This document shows, one piece after another, positions 35,333-63,451 of a stretch of 64,000 nucleotides of DNA. The notes beneath the pieces are model-generated. The model was not told where the DNA came from. It did not search any database and was given only the letters and a program-made list of their open reading frames with translations. The position numbers and the translations under genes were made by a program. Within the stretch, counting starts at the first letter, position 1; the number at the start of each line of letters is the position of its first letter. Source of the DNA: Gemmatimonadota bacterium (GTDB lineage: Bacteria; JAAXHH01); NCBI GenBank assembly GCA_009838645.1, contig VXRC01000049.1:1-64000 (forward strand), in the 5' to 3' direction.

Positions 35333-35391
35333 GGGGATAGGGCGGAGCGCGGTAGGGCGGTAAAACGGTAGAAAAACCGGAGAGGCACACC

Positions 35392-36495: not shown

Positions 36496-36538
36496 GACCA
36501 GGACGGGTAGAGGGCACGGACCAGCCCGCAGCCGTGCT

Positions 36539-38694: not shown

Positions 38695-38697
38695 TAT

Positions 38698-39514: not shown

Positions 39515-39547
39515 TTTCTCGTTTGCCTTTCCGGGTTCCGGGCCGCA

Positions 39548-40111
39548 TTACGACCCGTTCGGCTTTGCAGATTCGAAAGCCGTCATGGCCTGGTCCGCCC
39601 ATTCGATATGCATCTGGACCATGGAGATTTCCCGTTGCAGTGAAAGGGCGAAATGGCGAGAGCTTTCGGCCTGCGTCCTGGTCTGTGATTTGAGGATGCT
39701 GGCGTAGGTCCTGGCCTTGCGCCTGAAATCCTGGAGGAATCGCAGCGTTTCCTGGTCGCTTGCGATGTCTTCCATGAACCGAAACCTGAGCATCAACTCG
39801 GAGAGGTTGTCCCTCAGATCGGATACGGCGAGCCGCTTGTGCAACCACGCGCTTAAGGCCTTTTTGCCCTTCTCGGTCAGGTGGAACACTTCCCTCGGCT
39901 TCAGCCGGGAGCGGTGGATGACCTCGCTGTCGATAAAACCGTTCTTCTTCAGCAGCTGGAGCGCCGGGTAGATCGAACCTGGGCTGCTGCTGAAGTGGGC
40001 CATGGGCGTCGATTCCATCTCCAGGCGGACGTCGTAGCCCGACCGGGGAAGCTGGTTCAGCAGTCCCAGCAGTACGTATCCGAGCAGGGTGGGGGAATAG
40101 GGTCTGGCCAT
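39548..40111 (-). CDS. PadR family transcriptional regulator
   Basis: This 187-residue regulator has a winged helix in residues 1-90 (LLGYVLLGLLNQLPRSGYDVRLEME, SPGSIYPALQLLKKNGFIDSE, FHLTEKGKKALSAWL) and a long helical dimerisation domain (RTYASILKSQTRTQAESSRHFALSLQRE), as in subfamily 1 PadR proteins. These usually repress nearby genes until a small aromatic or metabolite ligand binds. It heads the leftward operon with aldolase (33 bp downstream), sulfatase and isomerase and probably controls it through the site at 40139-40189. Confidence 0.9.
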   Translation of the reverse strand: MARPYSPTLLGYVLLGLLNQLPRSGYDVRLEMESTPMAHFSSSPGSIYPALQLLKKNGFIDSEVIHRSRLKPREVFHLTEKGKKALSAWLHKRLAVSDLRDNLSELMLRFRFMEDIASDQETLRFLQDFRRKARTYASILKSQTRTQAESSRHFALSLQREISMVQMHIEWADQAMTAFESAKPNGS

Positions 40112-40138
40112 CGGGCAGTTTGCGTAATATGGAAAGAA

Positions 40139-40189
40139 TTAGTACGAACCGTTCTAAACGAGTATACGATCACCGTCCATCGTTGCCAA
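40139..40189 (-). promoter_or_regulatory. PadR operon promoter with a start-site inverted repeat
   Basis: Read leftwards: TTGGCA (40189-40184), a 17-bp spacer and TATACT (40166-40161), one of the best promoter matches here. The predicted start near 40155 falls inside an imperfect inverted repeat, TTAG-TAC-GAAC-C-GTTC-TAA (40139-40157), well placed for autorepression by PadR. The 203-bp gap 40112-40314 shows nothing else. Confidence 0.5.
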
Positions 40190-40314
40190 ACACAAAATGT
40201 CCGTCAGGCGCAAATGCTGAAAATGCTGCGGATCGTTTGGGGATCTGATGTCCGTGATTCAAGCTTTCCAGCGCAACGTTGCAGGCGTAACGATGGCGCT
40301 TCGCAAAGGCTTCG

Positions 40315-41136
40315 CTACGGAGCGTCCGCGGTCTGCTGTTGCCGCCAGACCTCGAATTCGGCCGTCATTTCGGGGGTCCATTCACGGTCGATCTCGCCGG
40401 GCGTGTAGGTGCCTTCGCGAAGCTGCTGGTGGCCCCAGGCGTCCCGCATCCTGGTTTCTTCCGATTCGATGACGACCTGTTCCGCCAGGTGCGGCGGTAT
40501 GAAGATGACCCCTTCCCGCGTGCCGAGCACGACGTCCCCGGGTACGCAGGTGGCCTCGAGCCCGATCCGGACCGGCACGTTGATGCCGAGGAGGGTTACG
40601 TCGGCGATGGCCGTGGGATCGACCCCGCGGATGTAGGAGACCATGGGGATTTCGTAGAGCCTTTGCAGGTCCCGGATTCCTCCGTCGATGACCATGCCCG
40701 TTCCGGTCTTGGCATAGATGGAATTTCCGAGATTATCGCCGGCGAAGGTCCCGAACTTGACCTTTCCGAAGAGGTCGATGACGATCACGTCTTTGGGTTC
40801 GAGCGTATCGATTACCCAGGAGTTCTGGCCGCCTATGCAGCCATGTTCCGCGCCGTCGGCCTGGACCGCCGTTTCCAGGTCGGGCCGGGTGGGCACGTAG
40901 ACCCCGGTCACCGCGCGGCCGACGAGGGTACGATCGGGATGGAGGATCTGCCAGTCCCCCGCGAACTGGTAGTTGTATCCCTTTCCTCCGATGACGCCCC
41001 ATGCTTCCTCGATGGTTACCTTCTCCATCCGTTTCAGAATGCCGTCGGGCACGACGGGGCGCCCGTCCGGACCCCGTTCGCCGTCCCACTGCGAGGTGAC
41101 GGCTCGCGTGAATTCCGGACTGTTCAAACCGATCAT
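40315..41136 (-). CDS. RraA-like protein (HMG/CHA aldolase family)
   Basis: This 273-residue protein has the RraA fold with the substrate-binding DGGIRDLQRL (Gly-x-Arg-Asp) and the phosphate-like loop FAGDNLGNSIYAK. Family members are 4-hydroxy-4-methyl-2-oxoglutarate aldolases and oxaloacetate decarboxylases, or RNase E inhibitors that lack catalysis. It is longer than RraA itself (about 160), with an extra N-terminal 60 residues and a C-terminal tail (REWTPEMTAEFEVWRQQQ). It follows the prohibitin gene by 72 bp on the same strand. A keto-acid aldolase role beside the sugar-acid genes is plausible. Confidence 0.82.
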   Translation of the reverse strand: MIGLNSPEFTRAVTSQWDGERGPDGRPVVPDGILKRMEKVTIEEAWGVIGGKGYNYQFAGDWQILHPDRTLVGRAVTGVYVPTRPDLETAVQADGAEHGCIGGQNSWVIDTLEPKDVIVIDLFGKVKFGTFAGDNLGNSIYAKTGTGMVIDGGIRDLQRLYEIPMVSYIRGVDPTAIADVTLLGINVPVRIGLEATCVPGDVVLGTREGVIFIPPHLAEQVVIESEETRMRDAWGHQQLREGTYTPGEIDREWTPEMTAEFEVWRQQQTADAP

Positions 41137-41208
41137 GTAAGGCTCCTGTCTCCTTGTCGCTTGCGGGGTATGTCGACTGCGCCGTTTCCGAACGACGGCA
41201 CGGGCACC

Positions 41209-42030
41209 CTACCTGGTCTGGGGACCCAGCGTCTTCAGATCGATGAAGGGCATGGCCTGTCCGATGACCTGGGGAAAATGGCCGTCCCATTTCTCGATCG
41301 CACGGAGTTGAAGCAGGGTCGGCGTGATCGTGGCGCGCTGCAACCGTTGGGACTCGGCCTCAGCCTGGGCGGATGCTATTTTCTGCTCGGCTTCAATGCG
41401 AATTCGCTCCAGGTCGCGCTGGGCCTTCAGGGCCTGCTGCTCGGCCATCTGCTTGGCTTCGATCGCCGTGTTGAAGTTGTTGGAAAAAGCAAAGTCGACT
41501 ATGTTGAACTCGTCCACGATCATGTTGAAGTTCAGGAGTCGTTGCGTGAGGGAGGCCTTGATCTCATCCTTGACGTCCGCGCGGCGCGTAATCAATTCCT
41601 CCGCGGTGTACTGTGCGGACACCGCCTTGACGGCTTCCTGGACAGCGGGATCGATGACGCGTTCCTTGTAGAATATGCCGATTTCCTGGTAGACCGTGTT
41701 CACCCGACCAGGATCTACATGGTAGTTCAACGCGATCGTGGACGAAACCGTCTGCAGGTCCTTGGTAGAAGCCGTGGCGGCGGTCTCCGCCTTCTTGATC
41801 TTCACGTCGACGGGAATCACGTCCTCGATAAAGGGCGTCTTGAATCTGATTCCTTCGTCGAGGATCCGGTCCTGTATGCCGCCAACCTTGCTGAATACCA
41901 CCCCGCGTTCGCCGGCGCCGATCACCGCGTAAGAATTGTACAGCACCAGCAGCACGACGATACCGATGGCGATTTTCAGATACGGGATATTGCTGCCGGG
42001 AAGTTGCTCCCGGATATCATACTCAGACAT
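41209..42030 (-). CDS. Prohibitin-type SPFH-domain membrane protein
   Basis: This 273-residue protein has one N-terminal membrane segment (YLKIAIGIVVLLVLYNSYAV, about residues 17-36) followed by an SPFH/band-7 domain (GERGVVFSKVGGIQDRILDEGIRFKTPFIEDVIPVDVKIKKAE) and a coiled coil (AEQQALKAQRDLERIRIEAEQKIASAQAEAESQRLQ), the layout of prohibitins. These form large rings at the membrane, often working with FtsH. No ftsH is nearby. A strong ggaggag site lies six bases before the ATG. Placement between dehydrogenase and RraA-like genes does not suggest a metabolic role. Confidence 0.92.
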   Translation of the reverse strand: MSEYDIREQLPGSNIPYLKIAIGIVVLLVLYNSYAVIGAGERGVVFSKVGGIQDRILDEGIRFKTPFIEDVIPVDVKIKKAETAATASTKDLQTVSSTIALNYHVDPGRVNTVYQEIGIFYKERVIDPAVQEAVKAVSAQYTAEELITRRADVKDEIKASLTQRLLNFNMIVDEFNIVDFAFSNNFNTAIEAKQMAEQQALKAQRDLERIRIEAEQKIASAQAEAESQRLQRATITPTLLQLRAIEKWDGHFPQVIGQAMPFIDLKTLGPQTR

Positions 42031-42065
42031 TTCTACTCCTCCTTCTACTTGGTGGACCGGCTCGA

Positions 42066-42092
42066 CTGGCCGGACTGACCGGACTGGCCGGA
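42066..42092. repeat. Three 9-bp tandem repeats (ctggccgga type)
   Basis: Units at 42066, 42075 and 42084 differ at one base. They lie in the 99-bp spacer between the prohibitin start and the stop of the upstream dehydrogenase gene. Confidence 0.65.
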
Positions 42093-42129
42093 TGGGCCCA
42101 ACCGGCCGGAATACGCGTTGACGTGATGC

Positions 42130-43158
42130 TCACGCGTTGATGTGAATCAACACTTTCAGGGAATCCTGTGCGGCGGCGGTGACCTCCATGCCCCGCCGAG
42201 TCTCAGATAAAGGAAAGCGGTGTGTAACGACCTGGTCGGAAGTTACCACACCGGCCTCGATAAGGTCCAGCGCCATGCGGGTATCGTGAGGCCCGCAGGA
42301 ATAACTGCATACGATCGATACGTCATTAAAGTACAGGTCATAGGGCCGGAAGGCAAGCACATCCTCCTCTGGCGAGGACATGAAGAGGAGCACGATCCCG
42401 CCCTTGCCCACGCAGGCCAGTCCGGTCTCCATCGCCGCGATGCTGCCGGGACCGACGATCACCGTGTCGGCCATCACGCCACCCGTAAGTTCGCGTACCG
42501 CCTCCGCCGTTACGTGCTCCCGCACGTCCACCACGTGGTCCATGCCGAGTTCGAGCGCCTTGTTCAGCCGGTAGGGCACCCGGTCGGTCCCGATAACCGT
42601 CCTGGCGCCGTAGTGCCGGGCAACGATACCGTTCAGGACGCCCATGAAGCCCAGTCCGATGACGAGCACGATGTCCCCCGGGCGGACACGGGCGCGTTCC
42701 ACCGCCTTGACCGAGCAGGCTACGGGCTCGATCAGCGCGCCGTCGTCGAAGGAAACCGATTCGGGCAGGACCAGGGTGTCGTAGCGGAGGTTGATCTCTG
42801 GGACCCGCACGTATTCGGCCGCGCCTCCCGGGTCGAGCTGCGTTTTCTTCCAGGTGGCGCACATGGTGAAGTTGCCGCGACGGCAGTGGCGGCACCGGAA
42901 ACAGGGCGCGTGGTGGTGAATGAATACGCGGTCCCCCACGGAGAGCCCTTCGACCTCGTCGCCCACGGCCTCCACGACTCCGGTCGGCTCGTGCCCGATG
43001 ACGATGGGCGCCTTTCGCCGGATGTACCAGGGTGTGACGTCCCCACTGCAGATCCCGCAACTGCGCATCTTCACCAGGGCGTCACGCGCCGTGATGGCAG
43101 GCGTGTCCATCTCCTCGATCCGGATATCGTCGATATCGTAGACTTTAGCGGCTTTCAT
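42130..43158 (-). CDS. Zinc-dependent alcohol dehydrogenase family protein
   Basis: The ATG at 43156-43158 starts MKAAKVYDIDDIRIEEMD, the family N-terminus. The 342-residue medium-chain dehydrogenase has the catalytic zinc region CGICSGDVTPWY with GHEPTGVVEAVG, the structural zinc quartet CFRCRHCRRGNFTMC and a Rossmann segment VLVIGLGFMGVLNGIVA. It resembles sorbitol/threonine-type polyol dehydrogenases. It lies 20 bp downstream of a second dehydrogenase of the same family, so the two are co-transcribed. Both probably oxidise sugar alcohols or hydroxy acids; the substrates are unknown. Confidence 0.9.
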   Translation of the reverse strand: MKAAKVYDIDDIRIEEMDTPAITARDALVKMRSCGICSGDVTPWYIRRKAPIVIGHEPTGVVEAVGDEVEGLSVGDRVFIHHHAPCFRCRHCRRGNFTMCATWKKTQLDPGGAAEYVRVPEINLRYDTLVLPESVSFDDGALIEPVACSVKAVERARVRPGDIVLVIGLGFMGVLNGIVARHYGARTVIGTDRVPYRLNKALELGMDHVVDVREHVTAEAVRELTGGVMADTVIVGPGSIAAMETGLACVGKGGIVLLFMSSPEEDVLAFRPYDLYFNDVSIVCSYSCGPHDTRMALDLIEAGVVTSDQVVTHRFPLSETRRGMEVTAAAQDSLKVLIHINA

Positions 43159-43178
43159 GGACGGTACCCCCGCCGGGA

Positions 43179-44207
43179 TCAGGGTATGATCGCGTACTTC
43201 AGCGTATCCTTGCCGCGGAAGGTCCTGAAGGTCTCCGGCACTTCCTCCAGCGTGCGGTCTCCCGTAATCAGGGGCGTAACGTCGAGCCGCCCTTCCGCGA
43301 GCAGATCGTAGGCGCTCCGGACCGCCTCGGGCGTGAAATGAAAGATACCCTTGAGCGTGATCTGGTCGTAGTGAAGCCGGGCCGTATCGTACGTGACCTT
43401 CGTGCCTGCCGGGCATCCACCGAAGAGGATGACGCATCCGCCCCTGCTGACCATGGTTACGGCTTCTTCCCAGACCGCGGGTAATCCCGTGCATTCGAAT
43501 ACGGTGGGCGAACCGTGGCCCCCGGTGGCGTCCAACACGGCTTCCGTGGCGCGCTCGTCGTCGCTGTCGATGACGAGGTCCGCCCCCACCGCCTTCGCCG
43601 TTTCAAGCCGGTATGCGTGTCGCCCCGTAACGATGACCTGGCCGACCCCCATTTCCTTCAGCACCATGACATGCAGCAACCCGATAGCACCGGCGCCGAT
43701 CACGACCGCGGTTTCCGGACACGTCGCCAGCGCCTGGCTGATACCATAGGTCACGCAGGACAGGGGTTCCAGCATGGCGGCCTCGCGATAGTCCAGTTCA
43801 TCGGGCTTGGGGTACATGTTCACGTCGACCACCGTACCGGGAACCCTAAGGTACTCGGCGTATGCGCCCAGTGCCATCGTCTTCGTCAGGTGCGGGCAAA
43901 GGTTCTGAAGCGATCTGCCGCAGTAGACGCACTTTCCACAGGGCGCCGTATGTACCGACATGACGGGCTGCCCGATGGCGTATCGGTCCACCTTATTCCC
44001 TTTGTCGAAAACCACCCCCGAGAACTCGTGGCCGAACAGGGTCGGCGGCGGCATGAGGTGATGGCCCCGCCGGTATGCCTTGAGATCGGTCCCGCAGGTC
44101 AGGGCGGATTCCACCCGCACGACCACGTCGGTCGGTCCCGCGACCGGCAAATCGACATCGTCGCGGGTTTCGATCCTTCCCGGTTCAACCAGCACACATG
44201 CGCGCAT
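43179..44207 (-). CDS. Zinc-dependent alcohol dehydrogenase family protein
   Basis: The ATG at 44205-44207 (MRACVLVEPGRIETRDDVDLP) is used; the frame continues upstream towards the promoter without a good site. The 342-residue protein shows CGTDLKAYRRGHHLMPPPTLFGHEFSGVV (catalytic zinc and GHE), structural zinc CGKCVYCGRSLQNLC and VVIGAGAIGLLHVMVL. It differs clearly from its neighbour at 42130, so this is not a recent duplication. It is first in the leftward row dehydrogenase, dehydrogenase, prohibitin, RraA-like. Its promoter carries an inverted repeat at 44314-44339. Confidence 0.9.
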   Translation of the reverse strand: MRACVLVEPGRIETRDDVDLPVAGPTDVVVRVESALTCGTDLKAYRRGHHLMPPPTLFGHEFSGVVFDKGNKVDRYAIGQPVMSVHTAPCGKCVYCGRSLQNLCPHLTKTMALGAYAEYLRVPGTVVDVNMYPKPDELDYREAAMLEPLSCVTYGISQALATCPETAVVIGAGAIGLLHVMVLKEMGVGQVIVTGRHAYRLETAKAVGADLVIDSDDERATEAVLDATGGHGSPTVFECTGLPAVWEEAVTMVSRGGCVILFGGCPAGTKVTYDTARLHYDQITLKGIFHFTPEAVRSAYDLLAEGRLDVTPLITGDRTLEEVPETFRTFRGKDTLKYAIIP

Positions 44208-44306
44208 TAGGGTAAAGTATCCGTAGCTCTGTGGGTATGTTCGCCCTGAACGTAAACGCCTATCAGGTAAGACGTAATGACTGCGAAACAAGTTTCACGA
44301 ACGCCT

Positions 44307-51607: not shown

Positions 51608-53359
51608 TCATCCCCACGGAAACGCTAACGTCGGCTGGTTCGCAAATCGTTCCATGGAGATCTCGAGGCGGGCCCCGGAGCCGGGCGCGAGCCGCAGTCT
51701 GAGATAGTCGCCGGCCACTTCCACGGTCCGTCCGTCCGCTTCCGCGGCCTTGCTTTCCACCGAAACCGATTTCAATGCGTGTTCCCGGTAGGCGCCGCCC
51801 TGGATGATGATATCCGCAGGATCTACCGGGTTGAGGTTGACCAGCGTTACCGCCGACCTCGTATCGGCGACCGTGTCGACCAGCGCCGCAACGTCTTCCG
51901 GCAGCCCGGGTCTGCGCCTTCCGGGATCGAAGTACCGGAACATGCAGTGGACCGCCTGGGCCCGCTTCGGGGCTGGACCGCCCATGGTCAGCTGAAACAG
52001 TGCGCTCGGCATCGCGGGGTTGAAACCGTTGGTGTTGTCGGACAGGCGCGTGTCCGGCGTCAAGGGGTCGGTGCGGACCGACTCCACCTTCTGCCGGACC
52101 GACGCCAGGTCGGCCTGCAATGCCTCTTCCGGATATGCGGGGTTATCACCGGCCACGTACCGCACCCAAGCGTCATCGGCACAGCGCGCCCGCGCTTCCT
52201 TGGTCATCGACCAGTACCAGGTCTCCATCGCACCGACGTTATAGGGTCCGGGGGTAAAGTTGTACCAGCCGTCGTCCCCATACTTGTTGGGGTACACCAT
52301 CCGGCCGTCTTCTTCCCGCCCGTTCTCGTTAATCAGATCGATCATCTCGCTCCATGGCGCCGCATAGGACCGGTCACCGGTCAGCAGCAGCGCGTGACTG
52401 AAGCCCGACAGGCCCAGGTGGATCGTGTCGCGGTGCACGGTCCGGCCGTCCTGCGGGGCGACGGTCGTGAATCCCCAACCGTAACACCCGCCGTACCACT
52501 TTCCGTCACAGGCGCCGCCGATGGTGCCGTCCAGCCCGATATTGGTGGGGATGATGCCGCCATTGGCCCGTATACGTTCCACCCAGGCGTCCACGTATTC
52601 CAGGATCCAGTCCCGGTACTTGCCCTCGCCCGTCAGCGCAAAGGCATTGAAGGCCAGTCCCGTCGCGAGCATGTTGGAGGGATGGTCGCCGATCACGTCG
52701 GTGTAATCCTTGAAATGGGCGAGCATCTCCTGGTAGTTGCGTTCGCCGTGGGCCAGGACGAAGCGCCCCTCCTCGATGGGATCGCCCGTCCAGTCCAGGG
52801 CCGTGGCCTTGCGTAGCATGGGCCCGCGGCTGCCGTTGAACAGGCTGCGGATGATCCGGTGTTCCGGGTCGTAGTTCCGCGCACCGGGATCCTCATCCAT
52901 GTAGAACCCGGACCACAGGCGCACCCGGCGTTCGAATTCCTCGGCGTCCGGGTCGCAGAGACCCAGGTCACCGAAGACCGACATGCTCTCGCCGTTGTGC
53001 AGCCAGTCGAACATCACCGGGAACTCCTTGTAGTACATCCCGTCCCGGCAGAAGGGTACGTCGACCGTCTTCGCCTCGGTGTACTGCTTGATGTGTCCAT
53101 CCTGCGCGAGGTTGCTCATGGCCAGCAGTTCCTCCGGTCCGCCCATCATGTAGAGGACCGGCCAGCCGGTCAGGTTCTCGATGGCATCATCGGGCCCGTC
53201 GTCGCCGCCCCAGCGCGGCACGCAGCGCATGTAGCCCTGCTCGTCGAAGTAACGACTGTAGAAGTATTCGCAGGCGCGGGCCTGTGCCTTCATGGACTCC
53301 TTTTGCAGGAGTGCCCAGGCCGGTGGTGGCATCGGGGTGGTGATGGATAACGAAGTCAT
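51608..53359 (-). CDS. Hypothetical protein, possible alpha/alpha-barrel enzyme
   Basis: The 583-residue protein has no signal peptide or membrane segment. I do not recognise its family. Aromatic and Gly-rich helices (ACEYFYSRYFDEQGYMRCVPRWGG, NLTGWPVLYMMGGPEELL, GKYRDWILEYVDAWVERIRANGGIIPTNIG) are like six-hairpin alpha/alpha barrels of glycoside hydrolases, lyases and terpene dehydratases. The last 90 residues are beta-rich (SAVTLVNLNPVDPADIIIQGG, LRLRLAPGSGARLEIS), perhaps a beta-sandwich. It stands alone between the conflict genes. A carbohydrate-active role is inference only. Confidence 0.7.
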   Translation of the reverse strand: MTSLSITTPMPPPAWALLQKESMKAQARACEYFYSRYFDEQGYMRCVPRWGGDDGPDDAIENLTGWPVLYMMGGPEELLAMSNLAQDGHIKQYTEAKTVDVPFCRDGMYYKEFPVMFDWLHNGESMSVFGDLGLCDPDAEEFERRVRLWSGFYMDEDPGARNYDPEHRIIRSLFNGSRGPMLRKATALDWTGDPIEEGRFVLAHGERNYQEMLAHFKDYTDVIGDHPSNMLATGLAFNAFALTGEGKYRDWILEYVDAWVERIRANGGIIPTNIGLDGTIGGACDGKWYGGCYGWGFTTVAPQDGRTVHRDTIHLGLSGFSHALLLTGDRSYAAPWSEMIDLINENGREEDGRMVYPNKYGDDGWYNFTPGPYNVGAMETWYWSMTKEARARCADDAWVRYVAGDNPAYPEEALQADLASVRQKVESVRTDPLTPDTRLSDNTNGFNPAMPSALFQLTMGGPAPKRAQAVHCMFRYFDPGRRRPGLPEDVAALVDTVADTRSAVTLVNLNPVDPADIIIQGGAYREHALKSVSVESKAAEADGRTVEVAGDYLRLRLAPGSGARLEISMERFANQPTLAFPWG

Positions 53360-55287: not shown

Positions 55288-55316
55288 TTGACACCGCGCC
55301 TTGGTGCGTGGATAAT
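55288..55316 (+). promoter_or_regulatory. Promoter of the aldolase/Kelch/PhyH operon
   Basis: Perfect TTGACA (55288-55293), a 17-bp spacer and GATAAT (55311-55316). The predicted start near 55323 leaves a leader of about 73 nt before ATG 55396, with ribosome site gaaagga at 55383-55389. Confidence 0.65.
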
Positions 55317-55395: not shown

Positions 55396-56175
55396 ATGCG
55401 CAAGAGCAAGGTCCTCTCCAAGCTACGCTCCTCCGGTTTCGTCCGGATGGCCGGTCTCGGCCACTATCTGCCCTTCTACATTCGCTATGCAGCCCACTTC
55501 AAATACGACGGCCTCTGGTTCGACCTGGAACACAGGGCGATGGATGCCCGGGAGGTCCAGTCCATTCTGGCCATGTGCAAGCAGCACGACATCGACTGCA
55601 TGGTGCGCCCGCCGACCCTGGAAAGGACCCGGCTGTACCGGTACCTGGAAGACGGCGCCACGGGCTTCATGATCCCTTTCATGTCGACTGCGGACGTCGC
55701 GCGCCACGTCGTCGACTGCACGAAGTTCCCTCCCCTGGGCAACCGGGGCATCGACGGCGCCGGCCTCGATGGTGATTTCGGTATCGAGGTGTGGAAAGAG
55801 GGCACGACCTATTTCGAGGACGCCAACCGGGAGACCTTCATCGTCGGTCAGATCGAGACCGTGGAAGGGCTGCGCAACGTGGACGCCATCGCGGCCGTGG
55901 AGGGCATAGACGTGGTCTTCATCGGTCCCGCCGACCTGACGCACCGCCTGGAGACCGACCCCAATGTCAACTGGACGCTGGACGATGCCATTTCCCGGGT
56001 ATCGGACGCGGCCGAACGGAACGGCAAGGCCTGGGGCATCACGGCGGGCAACCCCGAACTGGTCGCCCACTACCGCGGCCTGGGCGCCAGTCTCGTGCCA
56101 TGGGGCGGCGATTTTAACCTGATGGGCGTGTTGGAGCAGTGCAGCAAGGATTTGGACGGGATACCGGGCGCCTGA
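55396..56175 (+). CDS. HpcH/HpaI family aldolase
   Basis: The ATG at 55396 is chosen over 55372 because gaaagga lies seven bases upstream. The 259-residue class II aldolase barrel has KYDGLWFDLEHRAMD, the catalytic-Arg region MVRPPTLERTRLYRYLEDGATGFMIPFM, metal Glu in VGQIETVEGLRNV and Asp in IDVVFIGPADLTHRL. These are more canonical than in the paralogue at 38732. The family cleaves 2-keto-3-deoxy acids to pyruvate. It is first in a compact operon: the Kelch-like gene starts one base after its stop. Confidence 0.9.
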   Translation: MRKSKVLSKLRSSGFVRMAGLGHYLPFYIRYAAHFKYDGLWFDLEHRAMDAREVQSILAMCKQHDIDCMVRPPTLERTRLYRYLEDGATGFMIPFMSTADVARHVVDCTKFPPLGNRGIDGAGLDGDFGIEVWKEGTTYFEDANRETFIVGQIETVEGLRNVDAIAAVEGIDVVFIGPADLTHRLETDPNVNWTLDDAISRVSDAAERNGKAWGITAGNPELVAHYRGLGASLVPWGGDFNLMGVLEQCSKDLDGIPGA

Positions 56176-56176
56176 T

Positions 56177-57136
56177 TTGGACTATCATTGGACGCAGGTG
56201 ACTGCCCGTGCCCCCTTCGCACCACGCGACGGGGCCGGCGCATTGGTTTTCGACGACGCCATGTGGTTGATCGGCGGCTGGAATCCGCGCGACAAGCTGC
56301 ATTACCCCAGGGTCTGCAGCAATGATGTCTGGCGGTCCACCGACGGGCGGGACTGGTCGCAAGTAAAACCCAACACCTACCTCGACGAATCCTTCGATAC
56401 GAAGCGGGACTGGGCGGGCAGGCACACGGGCGGATACGCCGTGCACGACGGCAGCATGTGGCTGATCGGCGGCGACGCCAACCAGGGGTATCACCAGGGC
56501 GATGTCTGGTCGTCGGCCAACGGCCGGGACTGGCACTGCGTGCTCGAAGAAGCCCCCTGGGCGCCCCGCGTGCTGCACGGCGCGGTGGCCTGGATGGGCA
56601 GACTCTGGGTATGGGGCGGACAGACCATACCCGGCTTCGCCGGTGGGAAGGACCGTTTCTACGATGACGTGTGGGTTTCGGAGGACGGGAAGGACTGGTC
56701 AAGGCTCGAGCCGAACAAGCCCCGGTGGTTACCCCGCGGCATGGTCGGCGGAAGCGTCGTGCATCGAGGTCGTTTCTGGGTCCTCGGCGGCGGTACGTAC
56801 GAAACCCCGGACACGCCTGATCGGACGTTTCACAATGATGTGTGGAGTACCTCCGACGGCGTTCTCTGGGCGTGCCACAACCGTAACGCGCCCTGGACAC
56901 CCCGGCAGTATCATGGGACCGCCGTGTTCGACGACCGGATGTGGGTGTTGGCGGGCTGGAACGGCGTTAACCTGAATGACGTCTGGTACTCGTCCGACGG
57001 CGCAGTCTGGTTCGAAGTACTGGATACGCCCTGGCCGGCCCGGCACGCGGCCAGTGTCTTCGTGTACCGCGATGCGCTCTGGGTCGTCGCAGGCAGTCAC
57101 ATGGCGTCGGACGTGTGGAGACTGGAACGGCTATGA
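56177..57136 (+). CDS. Kelch-like beta-propeller protein
   Basis: TTG 56177 is the first codon after the aldolase stop. The 319-residue protein has five to six repeats with the pattern (R)xxGAxVxDDxMWxxGGW...NDVWxSxDGxxW, e.g. ALVFDDAMWLIGGW with NDVWRSTDGRDW, YAVHDGSMWLIGGD with GDVWSSANGRDW, and AVFDDRMWVLAGW with NDVWYSSDGAVW. This is Kelch-like and lacks a signal peptide, so it is cytoplasmic. Function is unknown; bacterial relatives include sialate mutarotases, but no specific match can be claimed. It overlaps the downstream PhyH start by four bases (57133-57136). Confidence 0.85.
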   Translation: MDYHWTQVTARAPFAPRDGAGALVFDDAMWLIGGWNPRDKLHYPRVCSNDVWRSTDGRDWSQVKPNTYLDESFDTKRDWAGRHTGGYAVHDGSMWLIGGDANQGYHQGDVWSSANGRDWHCVLEEAPWAPRVLHGAVAWMGRLWVWGGQTIPGFAGGKDRFYDDVWVSEDGKDWSRLEPNKPRWLPRGMVGGSVVHRGRFWVLGGGTYETPDTPDRTFHNDVWSTSDGVLWACHNRNAPWTPRQYHGTAVFDDRMWVLAGWNGVNLNDVWYSSDGAVWFEVLDTPWPARHAASVFVYRDALWVVAGSHMASDVWRLERL

Positions 57137-57969
57137 CGACACAGACCCCGGTGCCTTTCCTGACACCGGAAGAGAAGTGGCATTTCGAGCTGCAGGGCTA
57201 CCTGCTGCTGCCTGGCGTCGTTCCGGACGCCGACCTGTCCGAGATGCGTCCGGTCCTGGACGGCTGGCTGGCCGCGGACGAAAAGGACATTCCCGCTCCA
57301 CTCAAGCGGGGACGCCAGGAGCCGAACAAGACCCACATCGGCCACATCCACTACGGCCACGAGGTGTTCCAGCGGCTCAACATGAACCCGGAGATCATCC
57401 GCGTGGTAGCCGGGTTGACCTGGGGTTGTCCCCGTCTGATGCACTGCGTGTTCACCCACATGGTCAAGGGTCCGGAAGAACTGCGCTTTCATCGGGATGA
57501 CGACGGAGTCAAGGTCACCCACGGATTCCGCAATCCGAACAACGATTTCCAGGTGGCGGACGGCGAGATCTACTGCAGCCACCTGGCCACATGGGTCGCC
57601 CTGGCCGACGTTCCTCCAGGCACGGGATTCTGCCTGGTGCCGGGCAGCCATAAGTCCACGATTCCCGAGCCGGAAGGTCTACCCGTCGAGCACGACCCTC
57701 CGACTTCGATCACGATCCCCATGAAGGCGGGAGACGTGATCGTCTTTTCCACCCGCCTGTTGCACAACGCCAGTCCGTGGACCCGGGACTATCCCCGCCT
57801 GAACATCTTCCAGCGGTACGTCTTCAGTTGGTTCTTCGATCTGCCCCACCTGTATCCGCTGGAGGAGCACCGCGAGAAACTCTCGGACGATATGTACGAG
57901 TTGGAGAAAATGACCCGCGACGAGAAACAGGTCGTCAAGCGGGTACGGGAAATGCTGGCAAGCGCGTAG
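57133..57969 (+). CDS. Phytanoyl-CoA dioxygenase (PhyH) family protein
   Basis: The ATG at 57133 overlaps the Kelch gene stop (ATGA). The 278-residue 2-oxoglutarate dioxygenase has the H-x-D iron site in LRFHRDDDG, distal His in TRLLHNASPW and Arg in DYPRLNIFQRY, with PGTGFCLVPGSHKSTIPEPEG as the conserved strand-loop. The N-terminus ELQGYLLLPGVVPDADL is typical. Its fixed, coupled place after an aldolase and a Kelch protein suggests that it oxidises a substrate upstream of a pyruvate-releasing aldol cleavage, which is inference. Confidence 0.9.
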   Translation: MTTQTPVPFLTPEEKWHFELQGYLLLPGVVPDADLSEMRPVLDGWLAADEKDIPAPLKRGRQEPNKTHIGHIHYGHEVFQRLNMNPEIIRVVAGLTWGCPRLMHCVFTHMVKGPEELRFHRDDDGVKVTHGFRNPNNDFQVADGEIYCSHLATWVALADVPPGTGFCLVPGSHKSTIPEPEGLPVEHDPPTSITIPMKAGDVIVFSTRLLHNASPWTRDYPRLNIFQRYVFSWFFDLPHLYPLEEHREKLSDDMYELEKMTRDEKQVVKRVREMLASA

Positions 57970-58026: not shown

Positions 58027-59178
58027 CTACGCCTCGTGCACGATCGTATTCACCCGATGCGCCTCGATGTAGTCCCGATCGATCTCGGCGCCCAGACCCG
58101 GACCCTGGGGGACGGGAACGCATCCGTGTTCATCGATGTTCTCGAGCTCATCGGTGAATTCGGGCGCGTAAACGTGCGGCTTGGTCTTCTTAATCCCGGG
58201 ATGTACGAGCCCCAGTTCGTAGTAGTTGCTGTTCCGGACGGATGCCATGATATGGCGGTGGGCGAGGCCGCCGCCGTGGAGCTCCATGTCCAGCCCGAGT
58301 CCCTCGGCCGCGTGGGCGATCTTCATTACGCCGGTGATGCCGCCGTCCTCGTAGACCCCGGACCGCACGAAGTCCGTTCCCCCGTTCACGACGAAATCGA
58401 CGTGCTGCTCCAGGCCGAAGATATGCTCGGTCTGCAGGATCGGCGTGGTGATGTGTTCCCGCAGCTTCTTGTGGCCGAATATGGACACGCCGCCGTCCTT
58501 GTAGGGATCCTCCAACCAGAAGAATCCGGCTTCGTCGCAGGCTCGTCCTACCTTGAGCGCGTCCGCCCAGGTATTGTATTCGCAGGCGGGATCGATCATG
58601 AGGTCCATGCCATCTCCCACGCGCTTTCCCGTGACTTTCACGTTGGCGACCTCGCGCTCGATGGGGGCGTTGCCCCAGCCGTGGATCTTGAAGGCGCGGT
58701 ATCCCAGGTCCCGGCACTGTTCGGCGAAGTCCGCGAAGGCCTCGGGCGTGTGCAGTCCGCCGTTTTCGTCGCCGTGGTACGTGCTCGCGTAAGCCGGAAG
58801 GGAAGTCCTGTAACCGCCCAGCAACTGGTAGACGGGCGCGTTGTAGTACTTGCCTGCGAAGTCCCAAAGCGCCACATCCACCGCGCCGATCTGGGTGCGG
58901 TCGGTGTGCCGCAGCCCGCGCTTCAGATCATTGTAGGTCTTCTCCCGTTCGAAAGGATTGCTGCCCAGCAGGTACTGGACCGCCGGTCCCGACGGCGAGG
59001 GACCGCCCAGGTACTCGCCGACGATTCCCAGGTTGGTGTGTATCCGTAACAGGCCACCGCCGAGTTTGCGCGTGGCGCCTTGCTCGTACACCAGGTTGAA
59101 TCCATTATAGTCCACGCCCATGTTATCGACGGTGTATTGAAAAACAACGGTTTCGATTTTGGTAATTTCCGGGGTCAT
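58027..59178 (-). CDS. Mandelate racemase/muconate lactonizing enzyme family protein
   Basis: The 383-residue enolase-superfamily enzyme shows AFKIHGWG (Lys-x-His at the catalytic strand), metal ligands Asp in LMIDPACEY, Glu in FFWLEDPY and Glu in ILQTEHIFG, and His in MELHGGGLAHRH. The second metal strand has E-H rather than G-E-R, unlike the other two members in this window, so the three are distinct paralogues. An acid-sugar dehydratase is the likely class. ggagg precedes the ATG at 11 bases. It has a long AT-rich and purine-rich 5' region (59179-59607). Confidence 0.88.
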   Translation of the reverse strand: MTPEITKIETVVFQYTVDNMGVDYNGFNLVYEQGATRKLGGGLLRIHTNLGIVGEYLGGPSPSGPAVQYLLGSNPFEREKTYNDLKRGLRHTDRTQIGAVDVALWDFAGKYYNAPVYQLLGGYRTSLPAYASTYHGDENGGLHTPEAFADFAEQCRDLGYRAFKIHGWGNAPIEREVANVKVTGKRVGDGMDLMIDPACEYNTWADALKVGRACDEAGFFWLEDPYKDGGVSIFGHKKLREHITTPILQTEHIFGLEQHVDFVVNGGTDFVRSGVYEDGGITGVMKIAHAAEGLGLDMELHGGGLAHRHIMASVRNSNYYELGLVHPGIKKTKPHVYAPEFTDELENIDEHGCVPVPQGPGLGAEIDRDYIEAHRVNTIVHEA

Positions 59179-59607: not shown

Positions 59608-60834
59608 TCACCTCACCTTGCTGATGTCCCGGATGGCCCCGTAGGGCACCCCGGTGATATCCACCATTTCCTGGGCCCGGCGCTCCGTCTCCGCGACGTC
59701 TTCTTTAACGTCCTCCGGATAATACACCTGGCCGGCCCGCACGGTAAGGTGCGGCGTGATCATGCTGCCGCCGGTTTCCTCCCTTCCGTGGGCGTCGGTA
59801 AAGATAAAATGCCCCTCTTCGACGCTAAAAACGGCGATGTCGGCAACGCTTCCCTCCTTCAATGTTCCGATTTCATCCGATCGGTCCAGCACACGTGCGG
59901 GATTGATGGTCGTCTGTCGCACGATCTCCTCGAAATCCAGCCCCATGTTCAGCAGTTTCGACGCGGTTTCGGGCAGGCTGTGTACTGGGGACTTCAGGCT
60001 GTAGACGTGAAGGTCCGTGCTGATCACGTCGGACAGGAAACCCAGTTCGACCGCCCGTTTCGCGATCCCGTAGTGAAAACTCCCGGCGCCGTGGCCCAGG
60101 TCGAAAAACACGCCGCGCTTTCTTGCTTCGTATACTTCCGGAATCACCCGGTCTTCGTCGCCGAGGATATGATCTCCCTTTCCCTGGTAGCAGTGGGTCA
60201 CTATATCGCCGGGACGAAGCAACTCCAGAATATCCGGCAGAGCGACACCCTTGTCAATATGGACCATGACCCGGGTGTCCACCATTTCGGCCGCTTCGAT
60301 GGCCCGACGGAGCGGTTCCACGCCGTGGCTTCCCACCTGGAAGGCCCCCTGACGGACCTTGACGCCCACGCAGTGTTCCGGCCACATGGAAATGACCCGG
60401 GCCGTGTGTTCGGGATCGGCGTTCTTGATGTCCTCCATCTCGCCGCGCATGGAATTCAGCAGCCCGATGCTGCTGATATGAACGAAGGTGAGCACTTCGG
60501 TCCGGGACGGTTCGATGATGTACTCGAGAAAGCCGCGCAGGTTCGTCCATCCCGGGCTCCCGGCATCTACGATGGTCGTTACGCCGGTGGCCAGACATAG
60601 GGCGTCGGCCTTGATACCGAAGGTCGTGGCGCCGGCGTAAACATGGGCGTGCAGGTCGATCCAGCCGGGCGTTAGAAACTTGCCCGATACGTCGATGGTC
60701 GTACGCGCGCCGTCTTCAATGCGATCGGAAATCGCGGCGATTCTGCCGTTAGTGATCCCTACGTCGCCTCTTCCGTTCTTCTGTTGGGAGGGATCGACAA
60801 TCGTCGCGCCCGACAGCACCAGGTCGAAAGCCAT
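59608..60834 (-). CDS. Amidohydrolase/deacetylase family metallohydrolase
   Basis: The ATG at 60832-60834 follows ggagg; the frame stays open to 61125 but crosses the promoter. The 408-residue TIM-barrel hydrolase has LTPGWIDLHAHVYAG (H-x-H), a metal-His in MVHIDKG, another in DIVTHCYQG, and the Asp in VISTDLHVYS. The start MAFDLVLSGATIVDP is nearly the same as in the D-aminoacylase-like protein (MAFDVVIRGGEVIDG), but the rest belongs to the dihydroorotase-like deacetylase branch (EF_0837-type). The substrate is unknown, likely an N-acyl or cyclic amide compound. Confidence 0.87.
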   Translation of the reverse strand: MAFDLVLSGATIVDPSQQKNGRGDVGITNGRIAAISDRIEDGARTTIDVSGKFLTPGWIDLHAHVYAGATTFGIKADALCLATGVTTIVDAGSPGWTNLRGFLEYIIEPSRTEVLTFVHISSIGLLNSMRGEMEDIKNADPEHTARVISMWPEHCVGVKVRQGAFQVGSHGVEPLRRAIEAAEMVDTRVMVHIDKGVALPDILELLRPGDIVTHCYQGKGDHILGDEDRVIPEVYEARKRGVFFDLGHGAGSFHYGIAKRAVELGFLSDVISTDLHVYSLKSPVHSLPETASKLLNMGLDFEEIVRQTTINPARVLDRSDEIGTLKEGSVADIAVFSVEEGHFIFTDAHGREETGGSMITPHLTVRAGQVYYPEDVKEDVAETERRAQEMVDITGVPYGAIRDISKVR

Positions 60835-60912
60835 GGAAAACCTCCGGAATCGGTTCCATTCGGACGTCGCAGTCCTGATTCCCTTCTGCACCCTAGTTGT
60901 TGACATTTGAAA

Positions 60913-60941
60913 AGTATAATCATATCGTTTTCTCGCATCAA
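60913..60941 (-). promoter_or_regulatory. Amidohydrolase promoter
   Basis: Read leftwards: TTGATG (60941-60936), a 17-bp spacer and TATACT (60918-60913). Start near 60907 gives a leader of about 73 nt. A TATAAT on the opposite strand (60915-60920) overlaps this -10 and may belong to the PhyH gene at 60996, though no -35 lies at the right distance. Confidence 0.55.
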
Positions 60942-60995
60942 TGGACTTAACCCCAATGAAATTAACCCAGTCCAGCCACCTGAAGGATTTGCGCC

Positions 60996-61829
60996 ATGGC
61001 GAGCGGTCTGACCGACCACCAGAAAAACCGGTATCTCGAAGACGGCTTCCTGCCCATCGAAGGGCTGTTCGACCCCGCTTCGCTCGATCCCTTGATCGCG
61101 GAATTGAACGAGGTCGTCGATGCATGGGCGGAGCGGTACCACGCGGAAGGGAGGCTGCCGGAACGGTTTGCGGACGAACCCTTCGAACGGAGACTTTACC
61201 GGATCCATGAGGCCATGGACGGCCAGTGCGGGGAATTGCTCGAAGCCGTGCTGGGAAAACGGAAGACCGCGGGCATGTTTCTCGTCATGACCCTGCCCGA
61301 GATCCTGGACGTGGTCGAATCCCTCATCGGTTCGGAGATCCTCGTCCACCCCCAGTTCAACTCCCGGGCCAAGCTTCCGGACAGGACTTCCGTCGTGGAC
61401 TGGCACCAGGACATCGGGTTCCTGGATCCGGACGTGATGCAGACCTTCATGGTCAATTTCTGGCTGCCGCTGGTGGATACGGACGAACATAACGGCTGTC
61501 TGGAGGCCATCCGCGGCAGTCACCGCAGCGAACGGCTCCCGTTCGAGGATTCACCCGAGAACATCGTTCCCGGCGCCTTGCCCGCCGGCGAGCGGGTATC
61601 CTGTCCCATTCCCAGGGGCGGCGTGCTCCTGCTACAGCACACCACGGTGCACCGTTCCGCGCCGAATTACTCGGATCACATACGATGGAGCCTGGATATC
61701 CGGTACAGCGACTGGCGAAAGCCCACGGGAAGGGACGATGTCCCGGGATTTATCGCCCGCAGCCGGTCGCATCCCGAGAAGGTCGCCACCGGGCACGAGG
61801 CCTGGCAGCGGCTGTTCGAACTGGACTGA
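60996..61829 (+). CDS. Phytanoyl-CoA dioxygenase (PhyH) family protein
   Basis: The 277-residue 2-oxoglutarate dioxygenase has VVDWHQDIGF (H-x-D), distal His in LLLQHTTVHRSAPNYSD and Arg in HIRWSLDIRY. The N-terminus LTDHQKNRYLEDGFLPIEGLFDPASLDPLIAELNEVVD is the usual two-helix cap. A site aagga lies nine bases before the ATG. It shares the WHQD motif with the PhyH protein at 1254 but is otherwise different. It is divergent from the amidohydrolase gene and lies 86 bp upstream of the HTTM gene. Confidence 0.9.
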   Translation: MASGLTDHQKNRYLEDGFLPIEGLFDPASLDPLIAELNEVVDAWAERYHAEGRLPERFADEPFERRLYRIHEAMDGQCGELLEAVLGKRKTAGMFLVMTLPEILDVVESLIGSEILVHPQFNSRAKLPDRTSVVDWHQDIGFLDPDVMQTFMVNFWLPLVDTDEHNGCLEAIRGSHRSERLPFEDSPENIVPGALPAGERVSCPIPRGGVLLLQHTTVHRSAPNYSDHIRWSLDIRYSDWRKPTGRDDVPGFIARSRSHPEKVATGHEAWQRLFELD

Positions 61830-61915: not shown

Positions 61916-63451
61916 ATGATCGGCTCCCGGTCGCCAGGAAGGATGGTCCTACGCTGGTGCTCGCGGCTTTGCGCACCCGTATTCGCCCTGCCCGTTGACC
62001 TCTTCAGGATCCTGGCGGGTCTCCTGAGTTGCGCGTATTTTACAGCCGCCTTATTCGAGACGAACGACATCAGCGGACCCGGCGGACTGGTCGACCACCG
62101 GCTATCGCTGGAGCTTTTCCCCTATACGAAATGGAGCCTGCTACAGGGGGAAATACCGACGGGCCTGTTGAAAGCCGTCTTCCTTGGCGCCGTCGCTGTT
62201 TCCGCCGCACTCACAGCGGGTTACCGTCCGACCCTCTGTGCCGCGGTGCTGTACTTGGTAGCAGTGTCGACGTATCGGTTGAATTTCCTCGTACTCTACG
62301 TCGATGATGCCATATTCCACTGGACCCTGTTGTGGTTGATCCTGCTGCCGACGGGGCGCACGTTGACATGGCGCGCGTGGCGGCGCGACGGCAAGGCGGC
62401 CATGGACCGCTGGCGAAGTCGTACCGTGCCGGGACTGGTCGTTCGCTGCTTCCTGGTCAATCTGGCCCTGGTTTACGCCTTTTCAGGGCTCTGGAAACTG
62501 ACCAGCCCCATGTGGCGGGATGGATCGGCGCTCTATGTCATTCTCAAGCTGCCTATCGCATGGGCGCCACAACTGTGGGACGCGGGGTCCCTGCCCTGGC
62601 TGAAGATCGCCGGTTACGTAGCCCTGGTAACGGAACCTATGGTCGTGCTGTTGCTCGTGCTTTCGCCGGGAAGGCCGTTCAAGTGGATAATCGTGGCCTT
62701 GGTCACCATCTTTCACGCGGGCATCATCGCCACATTGAAGATCCCTTTCGCCAATCTTGCCTGCCTGGCCGGCGTGGTGTTCTGGTGCCGCCACGAGATC
62801 ATGACCGCCGCGGGCGTGCGCGCGCCGCCCGGAGACAGGGAGAGTGTCACGTGGCAGGGCAAGGGGAGCGTCACTTGGCGCAGCGGGACGGCCGTGGCGG
62901 TCACTTGCATCCTTGGCTTGCAGGCCGTCCTGGACTTCGCCAAACCGCAGTGGCGTTACGACGACTGGGAGGTGGGCAGGCCCGTCCAGGCGCAAGGGGG
63001 ATGGGTGGACGGTCTTCACCGCGCCGTGTACGGGGCGTTGTGGGTCGGCGGGCTGGCACAGAGCTACCGGTTGCTCGACTGGGTCGACAGCCGCAACTAT
63101 ACGCTTGATTATCGGGTCAGGGAACGTAGGCCTGACGGAAGCTGGAACGAAATAGATCAGGAAACCCTCTTCCCCACTACCATGCGGAGCATTTTGCTTC
63201 AATCCTACCTCCATGGCGTCGTATGGCGTAAGTTTCCCCCGGCGAAGGAAGCCGAGCTTCGGACCGGATTGAGACAGAGGTTTGCGGACAGGTATTGTCG
63301 TGGGCGGCCCGATGAGGACCTCCTGGTCGAAGTGGACGTGCGGATCGGACGCGTTACCGCCGGTGACCCACCACTGCGACGACAAGGCTACGGCCGGTTG
63401 ATGTCCTTTACCTGCCGGGCAGGCGTGGCAGTCTTTCAGGAGCCCGAATAA
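61916..63451 (+). CDS. HTTM-domain membrane protein
   Basis: The 511-residue protein has seven to eight membrane segments in residues 20-320 with the HTTM pattern (PVDLFRILAGLLSCAYFTAALFE, LNFLVLYVDDAIFHWTLLWLILLPTGRTL, NLALVYAFSGLWKLTSPMWRDGSALYVIL). HTTM proteins are relatives of vitamin-K-dependent gamma-glutamyl carboxylase. The last 150 residues are soluble with one more possible membrane segment (AVAVTCILGLQAVLDFA near 325) and are not assigned. The TAA overlaps the asparagine-synthase ATG by one base, which strongly couples the two genes. Confidence 0.85.
   Translation: MIGSRSPGRMVLRWCSRLCAPVFALPVDLFRILAGLLSCAYFTAALFETNDISGPGGLVDHRLSLELFPYTKWSLLQGEIPTGLLKAVFLGAVAVSAALTAGYRPTLCAAVLYLVAVSTYRLNFLVLYVDDAIFHWTLLWLILLPTGRTLTWRAWRRDGKAAMDRWRSRTVPGLVVRCFLVNLALVYAFSGLWKLTSPMWRDGSALYVILKLPIAWAPQLWDAGSLPWLKIAGYVALVTEPMVVLLLVLSPGRPFKWIIVALVTIFHAGIIATLKIPFANLACLAGVVFWCRHEIMTAAGVRAPPGDRESVTWQGKGSVTWRSGTAVAVTCILGLQAVLDFAKPQWRYDDWEVGRPVQAQGGWVDGLHRAVYGALWVGGLAQSYRLLDWVDSRNYTLDYRVRERRPDGSWNEIDQETLFPTTMRSILLQSYLHGVVWRKFPPAKEAELRTGLRQRFADRYCRGRPDEDLLVEVDVRIGRVTAGDPPLRRQGYGRLMSFTCRAGVAVFQEPE

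Follow-up and report, generated by a model that had tools for sequence, protein, structure and literature searches.

The aldolase, Kelch propeller and PhyH-type dioxygenase encoded here seem most likely to belong to an ordinary locus for the breakdown of sugar acids that has two additional, dispensable genes, since relatives shed either the Kelch or the PhyH gene and yet retain the aldolase beside a dehydratase-like gene. On balance we lean towards a reading in which what persists is a catabolic pair for acid sugars, dehydratase plus aldolase, with Kelch and PhyH as accessories. Judged by sequence, the pair fits non-phosphorylative sugar-acid catabolism. The enolase-superfamily enzyme would dehydrate a sugar acid to a 2-keto-3-deoxy acid, which the HpcH/HpaI aldolase would then cleave to pyruvate and an aldehyde. 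Our best guess for PhyH is that it acts ahead of the pair and renders a modified sugar acid usable, e.g., by hydroxylation or O-dealkylation, and for Kelch that its role is to bind the sugar acid or the corresponding lactone, or to mutarotate it. In part of one genus, the two accessory genes would be translated downstream of the aldolase. Positions of the features in the window, i.e., the whole 64,000-nucleotide stretch analysed, are collected in Table 1.

Table 1. Features of the locus, with their positions in the window and the basis of each assignment.
Feature	Position	Strand	Basis or remark
583-aa protein	51608..53359	-	found close to the aldolase in 12 of the 13 genomes that possess it
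Promoter-like site TTGACA-17-GATAAT	55288..55316	+	11 of 12 consensus matches; TTGACA conserved in 9 of 10 aligned genomes of the genus
HpcH/HpaI class II aldolase, 259 aa	55396..56175	+	PF03328; E45-H46, R71, E154, D180
Kelch propeller, 319 aa, TTG start, without signal peptide	56177..57136	+	Kelch profiles, model, repeat turns
PhyH-type Fe(II)/2-oxoglutarate dioxygenase, 278 aa	57133..57969	+	PF05721; H120, D122, H211, R222
Enolase-superfamily dehydratase-like protein, 383 aa	58027..59178	-	PF13378/PF02746; convergent with the aldolase unit
Amidohydrolase/deacetylase-family metallohydrolase	59608..61125	-	404.7 bits, NF006689 cut-off 371

Gene coupling and gene starts

Direct reading of the sequence confirmed that aldolase, Kelch and PhyH follow one another on the plus strand (starts ATG, TTG and ATG, respectively), coupled by a one-base gap and an ATGA overlap. 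The single base lies between the aldolase stop codon (TGA, 56173-56175) and the Kelch TTG, and the Kelch stop codon (TGA, 57134-57136) overlaps the PhyH ATG to give ATGA at 57133-57136. This tight spacing is not general across the genus: the one-base gap was found in four genomes (G000, G002, G003 and G007), the aldolase and Kelch genes are 22-76 bases apart in G001, G004, G006 and G009, and about 41 bases separate Kelch from PhyH in G004 and G006.

The near-consensus promoter claimed in the preliminary description is borne out by its match and its conservation, but is weak taken alone. Two sites of this type occur in the 3.2 kb scanned versus 0.7 (sd 0.8) in shuffles, and thus conservation was relied on instead. 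An alternative in-frame ATG for the aldolase lies upstream, at 55372. Ahead of the ATG at 55396, the ribosome site CGAAAGGATCC is conserved in all 10 genus genomes aligned, and the Kelch start codon is TTG in all 8 genus orthologues, conservation which supports the start assignments proposed for both genes.

Protein families and neighbouring genes

The aldolase is a member of the HpcH/HpaI class II superfamily (100.1 bits to PF03328, gathering cut-off 25), with 3qz6, 7et8, 4b5s, GarL 1dxe and YfaU 2vws as PDB relatives. According to PMC8560999, the active site of AbHpaI comprises Glu and Asp as metal ligands, plus Arg and Glu-His; the aldolase residues in Table 1 correspond, by motif rather than by structure, to AbHpaI Glu46-His47, Arg72, Glu151 and Asp177. 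The protein scores below the NCBIfam equivalog cut-offs for HpaI (118.7 versus 368.8 bits), GarL (110.3 versus 406.75) and RhmA (89.9 versus 441). Within the genus its dN/dS against G000 is 0.04-0.08.

PhyH reaches 48.6 bits with PF05721 (cut-off 22) and has 4xcb/4xc9 as PDB relatives (E about 1e-7). Its four residues listed in Table 1, forming the HxD...H plus Arg motif, are invariant in five aligned PhyH proteins, and dN/dS within the genus against G000 is 0.05-0.14. A paralogue of PhyH (59-62% identity) occurs in 10 of 11 genus genomes (unlisted for G010) and also in G011. As a replacement in genomes that lost PhyH it was rejected, since keepers possess it equally.

The Kelch protein passes the profile cut-offs (PF24681, 71.6 versus 50; PF01344, 47.8 versus 20.1) and contains five DVWxxx(D/N)GxxW turns and a closing DVWRL, read as six blades. 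The predicted model (pLDDT 90.9) matches the Kelch domain of LZTR1 with Z 32.6 and rmsd 2.6 over 284 residues, and the first blade strand in the model begins at residue 3, in support of the absence of a signal peptide from this protein. No NCBIfam match and no sequence match to YjhT were found. Within the genus, dN/dS against G000 is 0.13-0.20. Relatives 50-60% identical, with many invariant residues, occur in metagenome-assembled genomes under several phylum labels, and all relatives named from the Kelch scan are such assemblies; the scan used a single Kelch sequence as query and reaches close relatives only. The alignment comprises 17 sequences drawn from 21 loci; those excluded were the partial L044 and L058, L045 with its long insertion, L049, whose frame is broken, and L057, which encodes a protein identical to that of L056. 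Among the 18 loci outside the genus some contigs end close to Kelch (e.g., L040, L047 and L058), thus partner genes could be overlooked there.

The dehydratase-like protein has 1rvk/4hcd/4mmw as best PDB relatives (E about 1e-54), and its putative metal- and substrate-binding residues, placed by motif position, are K164-I-H166, D196, E223, E251 and H301. It does not reach the gluconate/galactonate dehydratase equivalog (101.7 versus 750 bits); its dN/dS within the genus against G000 is 0.05-0.08. Being on the opposite strand, it has no transcript in common with the aldolase, which counts against the proposed pair, as do the low equivalog scores of both enzymes. The preliminary description was silent on this convergent gene.

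Further out, the 583-aa protein gave no match in Pfam or among PDB sequences (E up to 1 in both) or in NCBIfam, and its structure, predicted from three sequences 91-100% identical to it, reached a pLDDT of only 31. The true start of the metallohydrolase is probably further in, as relatives have a 408-aa form. No transporter was identified inside the block, a further point against the pair.

Conservation and loss among relatives

Of 16 genomes from the phylum, 13 encode an aldolase orthologue (69-98% identity besides the query). The dehydratase orthologue shares a contig with the aldolase in 10 of these 13 and lies across a contig end in G003; G011 and G013 are unreadable because their contigs stop before its position. 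In other words, the dehydratase adjoins the aldolase unit in every relative whose contig extends far enough. The order of 583-aa gene, aldolase, Kelch and dehydratase is repeated on a 13-kb contig of G012, a member of another genus, while the other 7 of the 11 ORFs taken from this contig have no match in the window.

All three genes are complete in 6 of 12 genus genomes, five times on one contig and once split by a contig end, so the same order does recur in other genomes. Its preservation on one contig in five species-level genomes is not chance; inherited within a single genus, it is modest evidence for joint function. A unique order without any shared distribution of the proteins is thus not what the genus shows; outside it, aldolase, Kelch and PhyH orthologues were not found together among the relatives and Kelch loci searched.

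PhyH and Kelch were lost separately, and the three genes were not gained and lost as a set. PhyH is deleted in G001, where a 45-bp remnant is left bordering a GC-rich repeat (its score is reached by 0 of 500 shuffles versus G006, 2 versus G000 and 1 versus G004), and no PhyH orthologue was found in the sister genus G012. Kelch is missing from G008 and G010, neither of which has a second copy. A 35-bp remnant of the Kelch 3-prime end persists in G008, its score being reached by 0 of 500 shuffles versus G009 and G004, and by 1, 13 and 3 versus G000, G006 and G001. No remnant was detected in G010 (373-485 of 500 shuffles reach the score), and the loss there is therefore read from absence only. 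These shuffles are mononucleotide, a mild test, and the remnants were located by eye or by scanning several relatives. In G002 Kelch is reduced to a 94-aa in-frame remnant; this deletion, like the contig end inside Kelch in G003, could reflect repeat collapse. Loss of all three genes is compatible with G005 only, a fragmented 520-contig assembly which could itself account for the absence. Aldolase and dehydratase are retained in G001, G012, G008, G010 and G002.

These losses speak against the single pathway of oxidation followed by aldol cleavage which had been proposed, and for the step before the aldolase the neighbouring enolase-superfamily gene is a better candidate than the dioxygenase. 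The earlier interpretation keeps partial support from the gene calls, the coupling, the lack of a signal peptide on Kelch, the recurrence and the PhyH genes near distant aldolases described below, but not in the form of an obligate pathway.

Across the genome there are 10 HpcH matches and 40 PF13378 matches. Counting rather against the pair, none of the 10 HpcH matches, the window aldolase included, lies within 1.5 kb of an enolase-superfamily match; three of them, again with the window aldolase, lie within 3 kb (p = 0.04). The neighbour statistics, here and below, rest on all 10 HpcH and 111 PhyH matches but on 37 enolase matches out of 40, since three split genes were each counted by one piece only; random positions were confined to contigs that carry hits, and for most contigs the length was an approximation.

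Alternative explanations and known systems

The rival to which we give most credence, although we think it rather unlikely, is that Kelch and PhyH are hitchhikers: drawn from large or scattered families, they would have landed downstream of the aldolase, with its strong promoter and ribosome site, and would be kept or lost while playing no part in its pathway. Besides the repeated losses, the genome itself lends it support: with 111 PhyH matches, PhyH neighbours come cheap. PhyH matches lie within 1.5 kb of 4 of 10 HpcH matches versus 1.4 expected (p = 0.039), within 800 bp of 2 (p = 0.25) and within 3 kb of 4 (p = 0.12), an enrichment too weak to rely on. Kelch relatives also occur elsewhere without aldolase, PhyH or dehydratase partners. 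On the other side, Kelch and PhyH are under purifying selection, Kelch still adjoins the aldolase and dehydratase in another genus although other gene order is broken there, and PhyH genes lie near Kelch relatives in L041, L049 and L057. Moreover, of five distant relatives of the aldolase from other genomes (49-58% identity), three have a PhyH gene in the vicinity, at 0.15, 0.9 and 2.1 kb, though these genes are not orthologues of the window PhyH. No dehydratase relative was found on the stretch read around these five aldolases, which, together with the three PhyH neighbours, would favour a link between PhyH and aldolase and counts against the dehydratase-aldolase pair. In favour of the pair, an aldolase of 52% identity in L093 has a lactonase-type neighbour, an Amidohydro_2 gene, 23 bases away.

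We regard as improbable, but worth stating, an oxidative unmasking pathway in which PhyH would strip or alter a blocking group (e.g., O-methyl) on a sugar acid derived from a host or alga. Kelch, a propeller from a new multi-phylum family whose conserved arginine in each blade may line the channel, would then carry or mutarotate the acid or lactone, and lineages would shed one part or the other with shifts in the sugars at hand.

Slightly less credible still is an obligate three-enzyme pathway, in which PhyH would oxidise a ring or chain, the propeller would open or mutarotate the lactone and the aldolase would cleave the product. The tight coupling in the window, the full order in five contiguous genomes and one split, the catalytic motifs of aldolase and PhyH, and the PhyH genes near aldolase relatives elsewhere are all in its favour. 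However, the aldolase persists without PhyH in G001 and G012 and without Kelch in G008 and G010 (with a reduced one in G002), and the PhyH paralogue, present in keepers and losers alike, is no loser-specific replacement.

That Kelch is a structural or targeting scaffold for the enzymes we consider very improbable: the top fold neighbours of its model are protein-binding Kelch domains, e.g., LZTR1 and KLHDC2/3 (Z about 30-33), but YjhT has the same fold, and several Planctomycetota relatives with signal-peptide-like N-termini (judged by eye) have no enzyme orthologues beside them, so enzyme binding cannot be the general function of this family.

Under the preferred reading of a dehydratase-aldolase pair, the conserved neighbour names sugar-acid dehydration as the likely first step and makes the three-enzyme story testable. 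Natural deletions in close relatives act as knock-outs which reveal the optional parts, and the Kelch family is a clean target for study. For the PhyH expansion in one genome, this locus offers one PhyH with a defined metabolic neighbourhood. Our literature searches found no paper combining Kelch, phytanoyl-CoA dioxygenase and aldolase in one operon, none on an HpcH and phytanoyl-CoA dioxygenase gene cluster, none on phytanoyl-CoA dioxygenase in sponge Latescibacterota (the main text of PMC12993501, on sponge Latescibacterota, has none of the searched terms) and none on the Kelch family of this locus. A search on bacterial Kelch beta-propellers in Planctomycetes returned a paper on a galactose-oxidase-like gene of Streptomyces.

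Pairs of the RhmD/RhmA (YfaW/YfaU) and GarD/GarL type consist of an acid-sugar dehydratase and an HpcH/HpaI 2-keto-3-deoxy-acid aldolase. The window likewise combines an enolase-superfamily dehydratase, as in the Rhm pair, with an adjacent class II HpcH/HpaI aldolase whose active-site residues agree; unlike either pair, its two genes are convergent rather than in one operon, the proteins score far below the equivalog cut-offs, and Kelch and PhyH are added. YjhT/NanM is a Kelch sialic-acid mutarotase whose propeller fold (2uvk) the window Kelch shares (Z 27.7, rmsd 2.6 over 273 residues), a fold match only, at 15% identity; judged by fold, the window Kelch could be a NanM-type enzyme. Poribacteria resemble this genome in the great number of PhyH proteins, most of them of unknown function, encoded per genome, but they are a different phylum, and the main text of PMC3909097 has no Kelch and, in the parts concerned, no aldolase unit. 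In SAR202 bacteria, a precedent for the proposed pair, the relevant section of PMC10444878 places COG4948 and COG3836 in non-phosphorylative sugar-acid pathways, with growth tests. The pairing described in that section is by copy number and pathway rather than by adjacency, with Kelch and PhyH unmentioned there, but the expanded enolase-superfamily paralogues and the accompanying HpcH aldolases are features that SAR202 and the present genome have in common.

The gene unit and its surroundings

The window belongs to an assembly of 3.81 Mb in 50 contigs (97.4% complete), whose nearest named relatives, by label, are Gemmatimonadetes SB0665_bin_8, Gemmatimonadetes IRC1_bin_16 and Candidatus Latescibacterota p16x34bins.14; isolates such as these presumably originate from sponges. 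The preliminary description had reported a coupled run of aldolase, Kelch and PhyH genes, and this arrangement was borne out, as the coordinates and the ATGA overlap can be read directly and Pfam backs all three families. The ribosome site 5' of the aldolase is invariant in the 10 genus genomes compared, TTGACA is retained in 9/10 genus genomes, and TTG is the Kelch start codon in all eight orthologues. An enolase-superfamily gene next to PhyH had been missed. Past this gene lie an amidohydrolase and a second PhyH. Upstream are an ARPP-1 gene and a gene for a 583-aa protein; in G013, another genome of the phylum, the upstream protein differs, having 757 aa and no Pfam match.

Features of the window
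Feature	Position	Strand or overlap	Remarks
Sulfatases (two)	31924, 37303
GFO/IDH/MocA dehydrogenase	33499
Another enolase-superfamily gene	35392
Second HpcH aldolase	38732
Zinc dehydrogenases (two)	42130, 43179
583-aa protein	51608-53359		Without a match in Pfam, NCBIfam and PDB; close to the aldolase in 12/13 genomes
HpcH/HpaI aldolase	55396-56175		Pfam-supported
Kelch	56177-57136		TTG start; Pfam-supported
PhyH	57133-57969	ATGA overlap with Kelch	Pfam-supported
Enolase-superfamily protein	58027-59178	Opposite to PhyH	Directly 3' of PhyH

The stretch 31924-44291 looks like a sugar-catabolic island, and a sugar-catabolic setting of the locus is plausible because of the sulfatases, dehydrogenases and extra enolase-superfamily and HpcH genes of the window. 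At 61916-63451 a 511-aa protein is encoded, whose sole match is a sub-threshold one to a lipase maturation factor (18.5 bits vs a cut-off of 27).

Distribution and history in the phylum

We compared 16 genomes of the phylum, of which 12 belong to the genus, two to other genera of the family and two to other families of the order. The order aldolase-Kelch-PhyH-dehydratase is contiguous in the genome of the window (G000), and recurrence of the three-gene order, the check proposed in the preliminary description, was found in G004, G006, G007 and G009, again contiguously. The order is consistent in G003, where the contig end falls inside Kelch. In G002 (L069:9914-10198) Kelch is a 94-aa in-frame remnant in which blade 1 is followed directly by the closing strand; the remnant still overlaps PhyH. 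G001 is devoid of PhyH, and a 45-bp piece matches PhyH codons around GSHKS (shuffles reaching its score: 0/500 vs G006, 2/500 vs G000, 1/500 vs G004). A GC-rich short tandem repeat lies there between Kelch and the dehydratase, where PhyH was lost (L062:10917-11101).

Kelch is absent from the locus in G008 and G010, and no copy was found elsewhere in either genome. G008 keeps a 35-bp remnant of the Kelch 3-prime end, which begins near the same 3-prime site as seen in the G002 remnant (shuffles: 0/500 vs G009 and G004; 1, 13 and 3 of 500 vs G000, G006 and G001), and in G010 no Kelch remnant was found. The G011 contig ends inside the aldolase, and the whole genome yielded neither Kelch nor a PhyH orthologue (best 61%); G005, an assembly of 520 contigs, has no orthologue of any of the three genes. 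In G012, of the sister genus, the 583-aa gene, aldolase, Kelch and dehydratase are present, a PhyH orthologue is lacking (best 40%), and the remaining 7/11 ORFs of the contig are without a match in the window. Aldolase and Kelch lie on separate contigs in G013. G015 has Kelch on one contig and a partial dehydratase relative (63%) on another, and no aldolase orthologue; G014 has neither Kelch nor aldolase orthologues.

A tree built from the aldolase, dehydratase and 583-aa genes has a very long outgroup branch and backbone supports of 84-97, with lower values, to a minimum of 54, within the G000 clade. Since G008 and G010 fall apart in this tree, at least two losses of Kelch are probable; PhyH may have been gained after the split from G012 or, alternatively, lost in G012. 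Within the genus, dN/dS is 0.04-0.20 for all four genes, which indicates purifying selection, weakest on Kelch. The dS to G001, G004 and G006 is higher for Kelch (0.79-0.99) than for the aldolase (0.47-0.64) and the dehydratase (0.35-0.48).

Relatives outside the genus and abundance of PhyH

Scanning with Kelch yielded 21 loci: three in the genus and 18 outside it, the latter labelled as Planctomycetota groups, Verrucomicrobia, Armatimonadetes, Gemmatimonadetes/Gemmatimonadaceae and Latescibacterota. Within the available stretch around Kelch, none of these 18 shows an aldolase, PhyH or dehydratase orthologue; the closest found were an aldolase-like ORF of 26% identity some 7 kb off (L043) and 26-27% enolase-like ORFs (L050, L055). 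In the loci scanned for PhyH by Pfam, L041, L057 and L049, distant PhyH genes lie near Kelch (~170 bp, ~0.85 kb and ~4 kb, respectively). Several Planctomycetota copies (L040, L042, L046, L048) have N-termini that by eye resemble signal peptides.

Of the genomes with these outside Kelch loci, 16 were searched for the aldolase; five have one at 49-58% identity, not beside Kelch, and no dehydratase relative was found on the stretches read around those five genes. A PhyH gene lies near three of them (L094 at 147 bases and L091 at ~0.9 kb, both divergent; L093 at 2.1 kb), which counts against a dehydratase-aldolase reading; near the aldolases of L092 and L095 nothing matched the PhyH proteins of the window. 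The L093 aldolase lies 23 bases from an Amidohydro_2 gene, which counts in favour of that reading.

In G000 (3.8 Mb) there are 111 PhyH (PF05721), 40 enolase-superfamily and 10 HpcH matches; PF05721 matches occur in 1/14 control genomes. PhyH is at most weakly enriched beside HpcH (within 1.5 kb of 4/10 vs 1.4 expected, p = 0.039; no enrichment at 800 bp or 3 kb). Its proximity to enolase-superfamily matches at 1.5 kb is clearer (11/37 vs 5.1 expected, p = 0.0095; at 800 bp and at 3 kb p is 0.05-0.06). Given these counts and the weak HpcH-neighbour enrichment, PhyH at this locus needs no special explanation, and it may be a general component of sugar-acid loci. A 59% PhyH paralogue in G001 adjoins a short-chain dehydrogenase and a GH32 gene, another sugar setting.

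Protein features and likeness to sugar-acid pathways

Kelch has six repeat turns and is confidently predicted to fold as a propeller (pLDDT 90.9). The folds closest to the model are the LZTR1 and KLHDC Kelch domains, followed at lower rank by plant specifier proteins and YjhT. Many residues are invariant across 17 aligned relatives, among them same-place arginines in five blades (R17, R131, R187, R243, R289); in the sixth blade H83 is invariant and R82 is substituted in two sequences. PhyH contains H120, D122, H211 and R222, and its PDB relatives are weak matches only.

The best PDB matches of the enolase-superfamily protein are 1rvk, 4hcd and 4mmw (E ~1e-54), which we take to be acid-sugar dehydratases, and its aligned positions include K164-I-H166, D196, E223, E251 and H301. 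The class II active site is present in the aldolase (E45-H46, R71, E154, D180); motif comparison pairs these residues with those of AbHpaI, for which PMC8560999 describes the roles. Its PDB relatives include HpaI, GarL and YfaU, and it scores far below the NCBIfam cut-offs of all three.

The three genes had been proposed as one unit for oxidation and aldol cleavage. In our reading Kelch and PhyH are accessory, and we infer all the chemistry assigned to the locus. A paper on SAR202 (PMC10444878) connects the enolase-superfamily and HpcH aldolase families with each other and describes growth as improved by sugar acids and lactones. The stable pair here is the dehydratase-like enzyme and the aldolase, resembling known non-phosphorylative sugar-acid pathways.
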